A stretch of DNA of 53,624 nt, from positions 1 through 53,624 of the forward strand of contig LCCV01000006.1 in the NCBI GenBank assembly GCA_000998135.1, in the 5' to 3' direction. The DNA is from Parcubacteria group bacterium GW2011_GWA2_42_14 (GTDB lineage: Bacteria; Patescibacteriota; Minisyncoccia; Sungbacterales; GWA2-42-14). The position numbers and the translations under genes are program-made. The stretch's first letter is position 1. Each line of letters opens with the position of its first letter. The notes under the pieces were generated by a model. That model had not been told where the DNA came from. It searched no databases and saw nothing but the letters and a program-made list of their open reading frames with translations. This document shows, in pieces, positions 111 to 49,830 of the stretch.

Positions 111-2426
111 CTAATTACACGTCAAACACACTCCCGGCGGCAATTCTCCCGAAGGCGACGGGTCTTTGGTTTCAATTTCGGTCCTTACATTCGTATCAAT
201 TACAACACCTATTTTATTTTCCAGTTTAGCGGTAGCCCCATCATCATCTTTGGCCAAATTCAAAACCTGAACCGACTTGGATTCGTCGCGATAAATCGTA
301 ATTCCTTTACACCCGGTGTCCCAAGCAAGCAAATATGCTTTTTTTACATCATCAACCGTGGCTGTTGACGGAAAATTTATGGTTTTGGAAACCGCATTAT
401 CAACATGCTTTTGAAAAACCGCCTGAGTTTTTACATGCTCTTCCGGCTTTAAATCATGGGCAGTAATAAAAACTTTTTTCCATTTTTCAGGAACTTCTTC
501 AATGTGGGCGACAGAACCGCGTCTCGCCACCTCTTTCATTACTTTTTCCGAATAAAATCCTACGCGTTTAGCCACATTTTCAAACTGCTTATCAACCTCA
601 ACAAGTTCAGCCCATTCATTTTCATTTTTGGCAATGCGCGATTTTCTTACGTAGGCCAAAGCGAATTTTGGTTCAATACCCTGGGAACATCCGGCTATAA
701 TGCCAATAGTGCCTGTAGGGGCAATTGTGGTAATGGCGCAATTTCTTAATCTTTCTCCACCCGGCTTGTCATAAACAGAATCGCGGAAATTAGGAAAAAC
801 TCCCCTGTTTTTGGCAAGTTCTATTGAGGCCTTATGACTTTCATTATTAATAAAACCCATTAATTTATCGCCTAACTCCATAGCTTTTTTGGAATTATAA
901 GGAATTTCAAGATTAACCAATAAATCCGCCCAACCCATAATGCCAAGTCCAATTCTGCGGTTTCCTCTGCCCATAGTGTCAATTTCCGGCAGAGGGTAGC
1001 GGTTCATTTCAATGACATTATCAAGAAAACGAACCGAAAGTTGAACCGTCTGTCTTAATTTATCCCAATCAACCCCATATTTATTTCCCTTTTTTTTAAT
1101 CATTTTGTTAACATCAATGCTTCCAAGATTGCATGGTTCGTTGGGCAGTAATGGTTGTTCTCCACAGGGGTTCGTGCTTTCAATCTTGCCGAGCTTGGGT
1201 GTGGGATTTCCGCGGTCATTATTCATTCGTTCAATAAACACAACTCCGGGGTCCCCGGTTTGCCAAGCCAAACGCACGATTTTATCAAAAACTTCGCAGG
1301 CATCCAGTTCTTTAACCGGTTGCATGGTTTTTGGATGTATCAATTTATAAGTCGCGCCCTTTTTAACCGCGTTCATAAACTCTTCAGTTATGGCAACGGA
1401 AATATTGAAATTCTGCAAAATTCCTTCTTCGGTTTTGGCGGAAATAAATTCTAAAATATCAGGATGGTCAACTTTTAAAATTCCCATCATGGCGCCCCGG
1501 CGCTTGCCGCCCTGTTTTACCACATCCGCAACTTTATCGAAAACAGTCATAAAAGAAACAGGGCCCGAAGAAACTCCTTGAGTTGTTTTAATAATGTCGC
1601 CCTTGGGGCGAAGACGCGAAAATGAATATCCTGTTCCGCCCCCTGATTTATGAATAATGGCGGTTCCCTTCACAGCGTCAAAAATGCTCTCCATAGAATC
1701 TTCAACCGGAATAACAAAACATGCCGACAATTGTTGCATCGGCGTTCCGGCATTCATAATTGTCGGGGAATTGGGTAAAAATTCCAAAGACGCCAAAAGC
1801 CGATAAAATTTTTCTTCAAATTTAAACAAATCCTCGTCGGTTAAATCAGGATTATAAACTTTCTCGGCCGCGGCAATATTAGAGGCAATTCTGCGAAATA
1901 ACTGCTGCGGGGTTTCAATAACTTTTCCATTCTCGTCTTTTCTAAGATAGCGGGACTCAAGAACCTTAAAAGAATTCTCGGTAATATTGGTTTTGACGTT
2001 ATGGTACAAAAGAAAATATTTGGCCTCCCTTATTTCCTGGCGTTTTTTGCGATATTCCGTATATGCGTCAGCGACATCCTTATATCCTTTGTCGTATAGG
2101 GTTTCCACAACCAAATCCTGAATTTGTTCAACGCGCGGAACGCGTCCGGCAAATTTCTGATTAAGGCGCGAACCAATTTCGTCCGTAAGAATTTTTACTT
2201 CTTTGCCATCGGATTCCCTTACGGCAATAAACGCCTTGTGGATGGCGCTGTAAATTTTCTCATCGTCAAAAGGAACGACCCGGCCGTCGCGTTTTTCTAT
2301 GCGCACAATCTTAAGAGACAGCTTAGGCATGACTCTTGTGAGGATTGATTTTGTTATTTTTATAGCTGTGGGCATAAATAAATTTTTAATTTGGTAGCCA
2401 AGCACTAATTCTGACCCCATCACCAC
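111..2426 (-). CDS. nrdJ: Adenosylcobalamin-dependent (class II) ribonucleotide reductase with N-terminal ATP-cone
   Basis: ORF protein has ATP-cone-like N-terminus (KRDGRVVPFDDEKIYSAIHKAF), NSPTIMNAG, STNPCGEQPLLPNEPCNLGSI, TIAPTGTIGIIAGCSQGIEP and C-terminal CLTC. Likely true start is 2330 or 2375. Confidence 0.93.
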   Translation of the reverse strand: MVMGSELVLGYQIKNLFMPTAIKITKSILTRVMPKLSLKIVRIEKRDGRVVPFDDEKIYSAIHKAFIAVRESDGKEVKILTDEIGSRLNQKFAGRVPRVEQIQDLVVETLYDKGYKDVADAYTEYRKKRQEIREAKYFLLYHNVKTNITENSFKVLESRYLRKDENGKVIETPQQLFRRIASNIAAAEKVYNPDLTDEDLFKFEEKFYRLLASLEFLPNSPTIMNAGTPMQQLSACFVIPVEDSMESIFDAVKGTAIIHKSGGGTGYSFSRLRPKGDIIKTTQGVSSGPVSFMTVFDKVADVVKQGGKRRGAMMGILKVDHPDILEFISAKTEEGILQNFNISVAITEEFMNAVKKGATYKLIHPKTMQPVKELDACEVFDKIVRLAWQTGDPGVVFIERMNNDRGNPTPKLGKIESTNPCGEQPLLPNEPCNLGSIDVNKMIKKKGNKYGVDWDKLRQTVQLSVRFLDNVIEMNRYPLPEIDTMGRGNRRIGLGIMGWADLLVNLEIPYNSKKAMELGDKLMGFINNESHKASIELAKNRGVFPNFRDSVYDKPGGERLRNCAITTIAPTGTIGIIAGCSQGIEPKFALAYVRKSRIAKNENEWAELVEVDKQFENVAKRVGFYSEKVMKEVARRGSVAHIEEVPEKWKKVFITAHDLKPEEHVKTQAVFQKHVDNAVSKTINFPSTATVDDVKKAYLLAWDTGCKGITIYRDESKSVQVLNLAKDDDGATAKLENKIGVVIDTNVRTEIETKDPSPSGELPPGVCLTCN

Positions 2427-2561
2427 AATTTTACTCTACTTCCGCGGCGAAGCGCTTCGCCCCAACTCAGGTTGGCCTATTCGGCCACGCGCTTCGCACC
2501 GCATACAATATTTTTCTTTTCCACGCACTTTCTAACAAACATGGGTAAAATTAATGAGAGG

Positions 2562-2623
2562 TTAATTTCGTTCTCCGCAATTCATTCCTCAACAAACATG
2601 GAATGAATTGCGGACGAAATTAA
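2562..2623. repeat. Imperfect inverted repeat (TTAATTTCGT..CCGCAATTCATTCC / GGAATGAATTGCGGACGAAATTAA)
   Basis: Arms of about 22-24 nt read directly, loop TCAACAAACAT; lies upstream of nrdJ. Confidence 0.8.
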
Positions 2624-2676
2624 AAATTTGGACAAAAATGGAGGACAAAAATGCCACCCTTCTTTTTGTGTCTAGA

Positions 2677-2746
2677 ATGATGAAAGTAGAGAGTAGAATG
2701 TGGAAGAAGTTTCTTCCACCTACCACCTGCTACACACCACAATCTA
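2677..2746. repeat. Heptad-phased hairpin repeat (GTGGAAGAA-GT-TTCTTCCAC core)
   Basis: GTAGAGA GTAGAAT GTGGAAG AAGTTTC TTCCACC TACCACC TGCTACA CACCACA read in 7-nt steps. Confidence 0.7.
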
Positions 2747-2997
2747 ACAAAGACGGATGGCAACGTAAAACTAAAAAATAAAGTTAAAGGTTTAAAGTTA
2801 CAAAATCTTCTTTATATTTTTATATTATCGCGTAAAAAAATTAATAGCAAAAATTTTTCTGTGGATAAGTGCCAATTTTGTCTGCGAGGCGCAGCCGAGC
2901 AGAAACAAAATTGAGCACCCAGCATATAATTTCCGAAAATTATGGGTGGGTAAACCATATTATAAAAACCTTCATAATCGAGAGGAAAAGATTGCTA

Positions 2998-9862: not shown

Positions 9863-10093
9863 TTATATCCCAACACGCATCAGTGGCTCATGAATAAGCG
9901 AAATGGCCTCGCAGATATTTTTTAGGGCCTCGTCAAGCGTTTTTCCCTGACTGTAACACCTTTCAAAAAGCGGGCATTCCACCACATAAAAACCATCCTC
10001 GTCTTTTTCCACAAAAAGCGGCAGCTGCAAATTATTTAATTTTCCGCCTGAGGCGGATCCGCCTTTGGCGGAAGATTTTGCCTGTATTGTCAT
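9863..10093 (-). CDS. HicB-like antitoxin-family protein (orphan)
   Basis: LPLFVEKDEDGFYVVECPLFERCYSQGKTLDEALKNICEAISL; no HicA-like ORF adjacent. Confidence 0.75.
   Translation of the reverse strand: MTIQAKSSAKGGSASGGKLNNLQLPLFVEKDEDGFYVVECPLFERCYSQGKTLDEALKNICEAISLIHEPLMRVGI
10044..10071. repeat. Double hairpin CCGCCTGAGGCGG-AT-CCGCCTTTGGCGG within hicB
   Basis: Two consecutive perfect palindromic hairpins, in frame with the CDS. Confidence 0.85.
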
Positions 10094-16710: not shown

Positions 16711-16783
16711 ATTAACTAACAACTAACAACCTACAACCCACAACTTTTGTTGTTGGTTATTGGTTGTATGTTGTAGGTTAGTA
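16711..16783. repeat. Heptad-phased ACAACCN / TTGTTGG hairpin
   Basis: TAACTAA CAACTAA CAACCTA CAACCCA CAAC / TTGTTGT TGGTTAT TGGTTGT ATGTTGT AGGTT. Confidence 0.8.
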
Positions 16784-17374: not shown

Positions 17375-17431
17375 AAAGATGAGTATATACCATAAAAAAC
17401 ACTTTTGCAAATCATAAAAATCTATTATACT

Positions 17432-17499
17432 TAACTTACAACCTGCAACCAAAAACCTACAACGCGCGTTGTCGGTTATCGGTTGCTAGTTGTTGGTTA
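17432..17499. repeat. Heptad-phased ACCTACA / TTGTCGG hairpin
   Basis: ACTTACA ACCTGCA ACCAAAA ACCTACA ACGCGCG TTGTCGG TTATCGG TTGCTAG TTGTTGG. Confidence 0.8.
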
Positions 17500-17501
17500 A
17501 A

Positions 17502-20579: not shown

Positions 20580-22760
20580 ATGTCAACAGGACCGCCGATA
20601 CGAGAATTTCTGATTGTTTCTATAACCCCCCAATTTTTGGAAAGGGGTGTTTTGTGGTTTCAGGAAAATTACGAAAAAGTTAAACACGCTATAAGAAGTC
20701 CTTCGGCAAGCTCAGGAAATACAATTGGGTTTTGGCAAAATAACGCGCTGATTATTGAAAAAGAGCTGGAAATAAAGCCCGGAGAATTTTTACGGCGCAT
20801 TTCCGGTTTCGGCTATGAAAAAACTGGGATGCTTTTCGGAAAAGGGGAATTCGCGCATCACGGAAATATAATTGATATTTGGCCGATAAACTCCGATGCG
20901 CCCTTCAAAATTGAATTTTTTGGAAATAAGATTGAAGAAATTTACCTACAACCTACAACCGACAACAAACAACCGACAACTACTACGCGATTTACAAAAA
21001 AATACGGAAGTCTTAAAAATTTAAAACCGGGTAATTATGTCGTTCACGTTGACCATGGTATAGGAATTTTTCGCGGTATTACCGCGAAAAATGAAATCCA
21101 AAATCCGAAATCCGAAATCCTAAACAAACCCAAAATTCAAAACCACAAAATACAAAACGAGTTTGGAAATTTAAAATTGGAAATTGAAAATTCCACCACA
21201 AAAAATGCCGATGCATTTTTTATGGTTGAATATGCTCCGCCCAGAGACAGAACCGAACCTGACCGGCTTTTTGTCCCGGTTGAACAGGAAAAACGCCTTT
21301 CCCCTTATATCGGCTTTGAAACGCCTGTAATCCATCGCCTGGGAGGAAATCTCTGGACAAAAATCAAAAAACGAATAAGAGAGGACGCCGAAAAATTGGC
21401 CAAAGAATTGCTTAAAATTTACGCGGTGAGGGAAAGCATTACAAGGCCTCCTTACCAATTTGACGAAACAATGGCGCGTGAATTTGCCGATGAATTTGAA
21501 TTTGTTGAAACCGAAGACCAAACCAAGGCCATTGAAGACATTAAAAAAGATTTTTTGCGGGAAAGCCCCATGGACAGGATTATTTGCGGAGATGTTGGAT
21601 TCGGCAAAACCGAAGTGGCTATGCGGGCCGTGTTTGACGCTGTCGCGAATAATTATCAGGTTGCCTTAATTTCACCAACCACGATTCTTGCCAATGAACA
21701 CAATAAAAATTTTGAAAAACGTTTTGCAAAATTCCCCGTGGAAATTTGTTCGCTTTCCCGTTTAACTCCGGCAAAAGAACTTAAAAAAACCTTGGAAAAA
21801 ATAAAAGAAGGGAAATGCGACATAGTTATAGGCACCCATCGCCTGCTTTCTCAAGACGTTGCATTCAAAAATTTAGGCCTAGTTATTATTGACGAAGAAC
21901 AGCGTTTCGGCGTCAAGCAAAAAGAAAAATTCAAAGAACTCCGCTCTTCCTGCGATATTTTATCGCTTTCGGCCACACCCATTCCAAGAACGCTTAACTT
22001 GGCCATGGCCAAACTTCGCGACCTTTCCATAATTTCTACGCCGCCCCCCGGCCGCCTGCCTATTAAAACATTCATTCTCCCGCATTCTTATAAAATATTT
22101 GCCCGGGCGATTATTTCGGAAATTAAGAGAAAAGGCCAAATTTATTTTCTTCATAACCGCATTGAAACAATTGAAAAAGTTAAAGAAAAATTGCAAAGAG
22201 CGCTTGAAAAAGAGAAAAAAAATAAAAGTAGCGCAAATTTTCGCACTCGTGAAAATTTGCGCGTCAATTCCACCTTCCACTTTCCGCTTTCCACCCCCCG
22301 TATAGAAATCATCCACGGCCGGATGGATGAAAAAACCATGATTAGAATCATGGATGAATTCCGCGCCAAAAAAATTGATATACTACTCGCAACGACAATC
22401 ATTGAAAACGGCCTAGATTTTTCCAATGCCAATACCCTGATAGTGGACGATGCAACCCGGCTTGGTTTGGCACAGGCCTATCAAATAAGAGGAAGAATAG
22501 GAAGAGGCGATAAAGAGGCCTACGCATATTTTTCCTATCGGCCAAATTCAATTACCGAAATGGCTATGGAGCGGCTTCTGGCTCTCAAAGAATTTGAAGA
22601 ACTGGGCTCGGGATATGAAGTAGCTCTTCGGGACCTTGAAATGCGCGGAGCGGGAAATATTTTGGGACGGGAACAATCGGGAGCCATTAACCGCGTGGGC
22701 CTTAACCTTTACTGCCAAATCTTGGCCGATGCGGTTGAAGAATTAAAAAAGACGGCGTAA
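20580..22760 (+). CDS. mfd: Transcription-repair coupling factor Mfd (short form)
   Basis: CarD/RID-like PGNYVVHVDHGIGIF, helicase motifs CGDVGFGKTEVAMRA, SPTTILANEH, IIDEEQRFGVKQKE, SATPIPRTL, RIGRGDKEAYAYF. Confidence 0.93.
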   Translation: MSTGPPIREFLIVSITPQFLERGVLWFQENYEKVKHAIRSPSASSGNTIGFWQNNALIIEKELEIKPGEFLRRISGFGYEKTGMLFGKGEFAHHGNIIDIWPINSDAPFKIEFFGNKIEEIYLQPTTDNKQPTTTTRFTKKYGSLKNLKPGNYVVHVDHGIGIFRGITAKNEIQNPKSEILNKPKIQNHKIQNEFGNLKLEIENSTTKNADAFFMVEYAPPRDRTEPDRLFVPVEQEKRLSPYIGFETPVIHRLGGNLWTKIKKRIREDAEKLAKELLKIYAVRESITRPPYQFDETMAREFADEFEFVETEDQTKAIEDIKKDFLRESPMDRIICGDVGFGKTEVAMRAVFDAVANNYQVALISPTTILANEHNKNFEKRFAKFPVEICSLSRLTPAKELKKTLEKIKEGKCDIVIGTHRLLSQDVAFKNLGLVIIDEEQRFGVKQKEKFKELRSSCDILSLSATPIPRTLNLAMAKLRDLSIISTPPPGRLPIKTFILPHSYKIFARAIISEIKRKGQIYFLHNRIETIEKVKEKLQRALEKEKKNKSSANFRTRENLRVNSTFHFPLSTPRIEIIHGRMDEKTMIRIMDEFRAKKIDILLATTIIENGLDFSNANTLIVDDATRLGLAQAYQIRGRIGRGDKEAYAYFSYRPNSITEMAMERLLALKEFEELGSGYEVALRDLEMRGAGNILGREQSGAINRVGLNLYCQILADAVEELKKTA
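20943..20990. repeat. Heptad-phased ACCTACA/ACCGACA repeat inside mfd
   Basis: ACCTACA ACCTACA ACCGACA ACAAACA ACCGACA ACTAC, translated in frame as YLQPTTDNKQPTTTT. Confidence 0.8.
21067..21200. repeat. Palindrome plus heptad-phased AAATCCN hairpin inside mfd
   Basis: TTTTTCGCGGTA-T-TACCGCGAAAAA then AATCCAA AATCCGA AATCCGA AATCCTA ... GGAAATT TAAAATT GGAAATT GAAAATT CC. Confidence 0.8.
22231..22299. repeat. 12-bp hairpin plus heptad-phased TCCACCT repeat inside mfd
   Basis: GCGCAAATTTTC-GCACTCGT-GAAAATTTGCGC; TCCACCT TCCACTT TCCGCTT TCCACCC. Confidence 0.8.
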
Positions 22761-33647: not shown

Positions 33648-34520
33648 ATGTCTGACATTAGCACAATATATGCCAAAGACAAAAATTTCCCCAAATTATT
33701 AAAGGAAATTCACTTGCCACCCCAATTATTATATGTAAGAGGCGTATTGAAGGCCGAGGAACATTGTCTTGCCGTTGTCGGCACAAGAAAACCGACAAGA
33801 TACGGCATTGAGGCAACGGAAAAAATAATCAGAGAATTAGCCAAACTCTCCAATCTTACGATTGTAAGCGGACTGGCAACCGGAATAGATACCGCAACGC
33901 ACCTTGGGGCGCTAAAAAATAATTTGAGAACCATTGCGGTACTCGGCACGGGGGTTGACTCAAAAACAATATTTCCTCCGCAAAATAAAAATTTGGCCGA
34001 GAAAATTATTCAAGCGGGCGGAGCGGTTATTTCGGAATATCCGGAAGGCGCGCCGGGACTTGCCCATCATTTCCCGGAAAGAAACAGAATAATATCGGGG
34101 CTGTCTTTAGGCACCTTGATTATTGAAGCCAAAGAAAAATCCGGCGCTTTAATTACCGCGCGCCTGTCTCTTGAACAAAACCGCGAGGTATTCTGCCTAC
34201 CCGGCTCAATTTTTTCCTCCAACTCATTCGGGCCGCATCTTTTTATAAAAAAGGGGGCGAAATTAGTCACTTCAGCGGAAGATATTGTTGAAGAACTAAA
34301 CCTGCCCAATCTTTTAGAAATCAGAAAAGAAAAACTAGAAATTCTTTTAACCAAAGAGGAAAAGTTTATTTTGGATGCAATATCAAACGAGCCCTTAACC
34401 GTCGACGAAATAAAAGAAAAAACGCAGTTTTCAACATCCGGTATTCTTTCAACTTTATCTATGTTAGAATTAAAAGGGTTGGTTAAAAGAGGAGATAATG
34501 GACAATGGATTGGATTATAA
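33648..34520 (+). CDS. dprA: DNA processing protein DprA
   Basis: AVVGTRKPTRYGIEATEKIIRELA, VSGLATGIDTATHLGAL, AVLGTGVDSKTIFPPQNKNLAEKI, ISEYPEG, FPERNRIISGLS, C-terminal winged-helix region. Confidence 0.95.
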   Translation: MSDISTIYAKDKNFPKLLKEIHLPPQLLYVRGVLKAEEHCLAVVGTRKPTRYGIEATEKIIRELAKLSNLTIVSGLATGIDTATHLGALKNNLRTIAVLGTGVDSKTIFPPQNKNLAEKIIQAGGAVISEYPEGAPGLAHHFPERNRIISGLSLGTLIIEAKEKSGALITARLSLEQNREVFCLPGSIFSSNSFGPHLFIKKGAKLVTSAEDIVEELNLPNLLEIRKEKLEILLTKEEKFILDAISNEPLTVDEIKEKTQFSTSGILSTLSMLELKGLVKRGDNGQWIGL

Positions 34521-34634
34521 AATCCCAAATCCCAATACCAAAATCACAAATAAATTCAAATATCAAAAGTTTTTGATAATTTAAATTTTGAAATTATTTG
34601 GAATTTGGGATTTTGAAATTTGGATTTTCTTTAA
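34517..34634. repeat. Heptad-phased AAATCCC / TTGGGATTT hairpin
   Basis: AAATCCC AAATCCC AATACCA AAATCAC AAATAAA ... GGAATTT GGGATTT TGAAATT TGGATTT. Confidence 0.75.
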
Positions 34635-49559: not shown

Positions 49560-49830
49560 AAAAAAGCTCCTCGCGAAAATTCGGAAAGGCGGCGCTTGCC
49601 CGCCGAAGCCCCTGCCTGTGCCGTCGGCACGGCAGACAGGTCGGCGCAGGCAGAGAGCCGCACCGACTTGTCCGTCCGAATCTTTAGCGAAGAAGGATGA
49701 CAATTTTCCTTCGACTTTGCTCAGGATGATAAGCCTGGACTTCGGCCGAGCTCAGTTGAGGTCTCGAACCACAAGTTTTTCTTTGTTTACACTGAACTTG
49801 TCGAAGTGGCGGCAAACTCTCCTACGAAAA
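49560..49830. repeat. Composite of dispersed palindromic motifs
   Basis: CCTGCCTGTGCCGTCGGCACGGCAGACAGG; CCTTCGACTTTGCTCAGGATGA, ACTTCGGCCGAGCTCAGTTGAGG and (complement) CCACTTCGACAAGTTCAGTGT. Confidence 0.65.

Follow-up and report, generated by a model that had tools for sequence, protein, structure and literature searches.

The mfd gene analysed in this study carries in-frame additions derived from repeats, and in related bacteria other palindromes or heptads occupy the same loops of the Mfd protein. We consider it probable that several dispersed families of small repeats insert blindly, and that genic copies survive when they are in frame, free of stop codons and located in disordered loops. 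The families, which consist of arrays of about four heptanucleotide units, often paired as hairpins, and of short palindromes, would place new copies at many sites irrespective of genes, presumably by some mobilising activity. A copy within a gene would be translated, and it would persist if the frame was kept, a stop was absent and the site was a disordered loop or linker, where the insert would be nearly neutral and the protein would still fold and work. Because only copies in disordered loops or linkers would survive, the same few loops would be hit again and again, by unrelated repeats in different lineages.

The source genome is 1.24 Mb in 19 contigs (95% complete), and the window, that is, the whole stretch of 53,624 nucleotides that was analysed, comprises bases 1-53624 of contig 6. 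Copies were counted in a 744-kb sample of the same genome, part of which was chosen around AAATCC matches and in which ORFs were called mechanically. The features of the window are summarized in Table 1.

Table 1. Repeat-related features of the window
Feature	Position	Strand	Basis or remark
CCGCC..GGCGGATCCGCC..GGCGG double hairpin, intergenic; in frame in Mfd of two relatives	10044-10072		Sequence match
AACNNAC heptad hairpin, intergenic; arm, 4-nt loop, arm	16713-16781		Array, DNA fold
Another AACNNAC heptad hairpin; overlaps start region of following ORF	17431-17500		Array, DNA fold
mfd ORF (726 aa, short Mfd)	20580-22760	+	UvrB_inter, RID, DEAD and Helicase_C domains
Insert i, SPSASSGN, with CTTCGGCAAGCTCAG word (20701-20715)	20697-20720	+	8-aa gap in all relatives; word family dispersed
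Segment ii, ACCNACA heptad array in variable linker, little length gain	20944-20980	+	Heptad array; alignment
Palindrome at 5' edge of insert iii; left arm is conserved IFRG coding sequence	21066-21092		13-bp arms, 1-nt centre
Insert iii, heptad element (AAATCCN)4-AAAC-... with inverted arm, in RID loop	21093-21192	+	Repeat, alignment
Insert iv, 12-bp-arm hairpin GCGCAAATTTTC..GAAAATTTGCGC	22231-22262		DNA fold; single copy in genome
Insert iv, TTCCACY heptads	22268-22292	+	Array; no other copy in 744 kb
Composite heptad hairpin element of insert iii, intergenic copy	34518-34630	+	Sequence match, DNA fold
Insert i word, copy with one mismatch	49792-49806	-	Sequence match

Repeat-derived segments in mfd

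The identification of the ORF as mfd in an earlier note on this DNA was borne out: the ORF has the RID, the two helicase domains and the motor motifs, and a PDB fold search with the predicted model gave the solved Mfd structures 6ac8 and 2eyq as top matches. A scan of named genomes gave mainly distant Mfds; the closest named relative that we found was the Mfd of Candidatus Giovannonibacteria, a parcubacterial lineage. The Mfds of this order (window and L010-L037) are all short (about 650-740 aa) and stop directly after the helicase region, with the C-terminal domain absent and the N-terminus reduced; recruitment of UvrA by these proteins may differ from that in E. coli.

The earlier note had proposed four independent insertions of palindromic elements into this gene. 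The first segment, SPSASSGN, occurred only in the window Mfd among 26 aligned Mfds, and its word family (CTTCGRCNNGCTCAG) gave 16 raw matches, or 15 merged sites, in the 744 kb, compared with 0.018 expected. Together with the copy near 49.7 kb, these results confirmed that the segment is a repeat-derived in-frame insertion. In segment ii, the heptad array is real and its start is common to a relative (G004), but the linker, variable in sequence, exceeds that of relatives by only about 2-3 aa, and the segment can hardly be called an insertion.

Segment iii had been described as a palindrome with AAATCCN heptads and an inverted arm, in a loop that is short in most Mfds before the LEYA/VEYA strand. 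The heptads were located at 21094-21124, and the alignment agreed: the RID loop between the FRG and VEYA strands has 54 aa in the window, about 34 more than the 20 of most distant Mfds. Insert iii has 23 matches in its own genome, counting itself. The spacer copy at 34.5 kb folds as an imperfect hairpin (z = -3.4); within mfd, it is chiefly the palindrome at 21066 that folds. In segment iv, the hairpin has a DNA fold with z = -5.5, and the loop before IIHGRM has 47 aa, compared with 19 in nearly all distant Mfds, so that the segment is a true insertion of 28 aa made of a hairpin and heptads. By sequence, however, it does not qualify as a dispersed repeat, since neither a search of the genome with its DNA nor one of the 744 kb for its heptads yielded a second copy.

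In the AlphaFold model of the window Mfd, residues 127-144, 175-210 and 559-568 had pLDDT values below 50 and the ten-residue block holding insert i had a value of 58, while the rest was mostly predicted to fold confidently. All four segments coincide with dips in the confidence of this model. Segments i, iii and iv are lineage-specific, while other parts of Mfd are conserved among relatives, and the repeat classes reported for the spacers at 16.7, 17.4 and 34.5 kb are real copies. Segments i, ii and iii have intergenic family members and segment iv has none. Results from these comparisons indicate that the additions are repeat-derived and in frame, but that the number of independent insertions was overstated and that the term palindromic elements is too narrow, most of the material being heptanucleotide arrays or hairpins built of heptads.

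We regard an assembly or sequencing artefact as extremely improbable. Repeats do break assemblies, and an N gap in one relative (G022) falls exactly in the RID loop, but the window ORF continues unbroken through all four segments, and many separate genomes have comparable inserts. The frame breaks in the mfd of G004 fall at N gaps; in G016, the mfd frame is broken at a point outside the repeat sites where there are no Ns.

Related Mfds and other proteins

Among Mfds of the order, the RID loop reaches 54 aa and the loop before IIHGRM reaches 62 aa. The occupants differ from relative to relative: a hairpin with arms of at least 16 bp (G004), a perfect palindrome of 42 nt (G015), a multi-hairpin insert (G014), AAATCC heptads (G007), ACGAAT-type heptads (G010 and G011, with the similar peptide NKRIRIFEGD in the TsaD of G007) and one palindromic motif occurring twice (G017). 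The CCGCC..GGCGGATCCGCC double hairpin, intergenic in the source genome, is present in the Mfd of G018 and twice in that of Giovannonibacteria. Likewise, one loop of PheT contains three different heptad tracts in three genera. Strict hairpin and heptad thresholds recovered only 6 of the 26 Mfd inserts, while about 3% of control segments passed them; hairpins with long loops escaped a stem test that was confined to short ones. For TsaD, the result was weak (4 of 16, compared with 12% in controls). A BLAST test for inserts relative to orthologues in neighbouring stretches mainly sampled mfd again and included overlapping gaps in its counts, and was left out of the genome-wide evidence.

Several relatives have the same RID loop cut down to 12-16 aa. 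Since the E. coli Mfd substitution L499R was reported to abolish stable RNA polymerase binding (PMC5910403) and insert iii begins next to the residue that aligns with T498 of that protein, the neighbour of L499, the segments might be selected functional parts of the protein, for instance an altered contact between RID and RNA polymerase or flexible linkers, rather than tolerated selfish DNA. The shortened loops would also fit a selected function. However, the sequence and length of the inserts are unconserved even inside the family, the same peptides occur in unrelated enzymes, and pLDDT is low at the segments, so that we consider selection for function improbable. As a separate hypothesis, the usual contact with RNA polymerase may be absent or different in the Mfds of this order, because the loop is so short in several of them.

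Dispersed repeats across the genome

The presence of such repeats in genes extends far beyond mfd. In 411 kb sampled independently of the repeats, we found 32 tandem arrays of period 7, compared with none in a second-order Markov control; other periods gave 0-6 arrays, apart from the multiple 14 (21 arrays). The commonest length of heptad arrays is 31 nt, corresponding to four units and three further bases, whether or not the family has G runs; the AACNNAC, AATTCNT, CATGNTT and AAATTCA families have no G runs, and AAATCCC gives GGG on one strand. In the spacers, many copies consist of two inverted arms with a short loop between them. Perfect hairpins, with an arm of at least 11 and a loop of at most 25, numbered 133 (36 of them in ORFs) compared with 14 in the Markov control.

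All 20 array-bearing ORFs that were scanned match known families. These include the Ile, Leu, Val, Met, Cys, Glu and Arg tRNA synthetases, PheT, GatA, DnaK, TsaD, UvrA, UvrB, UvrC, RecG, alanine racemase and others, and in several the array sits in an inter-domain linker. The effect reaches many core genes of the source genome and also other genera in the order, an extent that the earlier note had understated. It had also spoken of a gene of essential type; mfd itself is usually dispensable in laboratory bacteria, and the case for essential genes is carried instead by the aminoacyl-tRNA synthetases and PheT. In two of the synthetases we also observed additional domain matches: the IleRS ORF L041:7852-11643(-), of 1262 aa, has a His_Phos_1 (histidine phosphatase) domain between parts of the synthetase match, and the LeuRS ORF L040:11238-14282(-) has a NUDIX match inside (residues 440-535).

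The composite element (AAATCCN)4-AAAC-(AAATTCA)n was found in nine copies that align in register, in mfd, IleRS, LeuRS, CysRS, YfhO, two further loci (L044 and L049) and two spacers, one of which is that at 34.5 kb in the window. The word AAATCCNAAATCC has 19 sites in the 744 kb, 13 of them in ORFs. Of 23 genomes of the order that were searched, 10 have the three-unit pattern, as do 31 of a phylum sample of 192.

A 7-nt unit runs through all three frames, so that one without stops can enter a gene irrespective of frame, and the expected filter is seen in the data. Arrays with a unit that is stop-free on both strands were found 26 times in ORFs and 7 times outside, compared with 12 and 27 for those with stops on both strands (P = 5.5e-5), as expected under blind insertion filtered by coding sequence. 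The same bias bears on another explanation, namely that the inserts are removed from the RNA or skipped by the ribosome, in the manner of introns or bypass elements. The elements do form hairpins, but the inserts in intact Mfd ORFs are all in frame and without stops, neither of which removal needs, the preference of ORFs for stop-free units would be equally needless, and an Rfam search of the elements gave no family and no intron match; we consider removal or bypass very improbable.

Comparison with known repeats

The Rickettsia palindromic elements (RPE), invoked in the earlier note as a precedent for in-frame repeats in genes, are hairpin-forming palindromes of 105-146 bp in spacers and in frame in conserved genes (Ogata et al. 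2000; PMC2229807), and the precedent is supported. By this description the two are alike in having hairpin-forming repeats in spacers and in frame in conserved genes (here Mfd, PheT and the 20 array-bearing core ORFs), tolerated by the host protein. Unlike RPE, the present repeats are mostly 7-nt arrays or heptad hairpins, several families occur together, and the host is Patescibacteria-like. Intragenic GTAG/CGTC REPs lie in frame in uvrA, uvrB, recB and tRNA synthetase genes; close to one site in recB, REPs of two kinds were found, and some REP families are associated with RAYT genes (PMC3733652). The location in repair and tRNA synthetase genes and the presence of different repeats at one site are shared with our case; however, no GTAG/CGTC-tagged palindrome was identified in the window mfd inserts, no GTAG tag was seen at the ends of the palindromes that we read, and a CGTC-type repeat was found only in the TsaD of one relative (G009).

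Dispersed heptamers of Xanthomonas and Nostoc are mostly intergenic, with a four-unit preference attributed to G-quadruplexes (PMC4692102), and those of Beggiatoaceae (TAACTGA) are mostly intergenic as well (PMC4679880). The present arrays resemble the former in their dispersed 7-nt units and four-unit preference, but here the preference also holds without G runs, the arrays pair as hairpins and the AAATCC family lies mostly in ORFs. These data indicate that G-quadruplexes are not required for bacterial heptads to favour four units. The repeats in P6b of the Nostoc tRNA-Leu intron are reportedly heptanucleotides too. P6b of that intron is described as a variable stem-loop with repeat motifs of two alternative classes at one site (PMC4476775); it resembles the Mfd loops in having alternative repeats at one variable site, and differs in being an intron loop that is non-coding for protein.

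Protein-coding palindromes, intragenic REPs and dispersed heptamers have all been described (PMC2229807, PMC3733652, PMC4692102, PMC4679880), and our literature search, which covered few subscription journals, found no paper uniting the three or reporting the phenomenon in Patescibacteria. What is new is the heptad hairpin element as a protein-coding insert, the scale in a reduced genome and the fact that unrelated repeats have invaded the same loops again and again. One would expect a reduced genome to be cleared of repeats of this kind, but they are present in its core enzymes, among them many aminoacyl-tRNA synthetases. The inserts provide a natural scan of insertion-tolerant loops in core proteins, and stretches like IPNPKSQI and NNQQPTT in these proteins are explained as repeat DNA.

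Origin and spread of the repeats

Local generation, in which the heptad arrays arise in place by polymerase slippage and the hairpins by template switching at quasi-palindromes, would require no mobile element. Insert iv is single-copy, the palindrome at 21066-21092 takes the host IFRG codons as one arm, and heptads are over-represented in many bacteria, for which slippage was proposed (PMC4692102). ORF hairpins at L040:15467, L051:10744 and L162:4007 share the core ATTCGCGCGAAT, and their outer arms differ yet stay complementary, which suggests local palindrome extension. On the other hand, the nine loci with the composite element in register, the peak of array lengths at 31 nt in place of a steady decay, and the identical words at unlinked sites all need copying. 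We therefore consider local generation unlikely as the general source: slippage accounts for changes in unit number, not for the shared composite element, while the insert iv hairpin and the 21066 palindrome may have arisen by local template switching.

If the repeats were spread by copying, a RAYT-like Y1 transposase is a candidate mobiliser for some of the palindromes. An intact ORF of this type (L176:1240-1968(-)) has GAAGTCGGACTTC palindromes on both flanks and one within its frame, which makes REP-like mobilisation of GAAGTCGGACTTC-type palindromes plausible. We found no link between the heptads and this gene or any mobilising enzyme. It is conceivable, and we advance it tentatively, that the heptad hairpin elements, whose arms measure about 31 nt, whose number of units hardly varies and whose stop-free versions are concentrated in core genes, form a distinct class of small self-spreading elements in Patescibacteria, with a copying mechanism of its own that differs both from simple slippage and from any described transposase.

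Two further observations were made among these repeats. The intact transposase ORF adjoins a degenerate Y1 transposase gene (L176, about 2196-2820(+)) flanked by inverted repeats of GGTGTCAGGTACC, a word with 12 sites in the 744 kb. At L058:900-8100, six copies of CTTCGACAAGCTCAG are clustered, several with the same flanks ending in CCCTGAGCGA.
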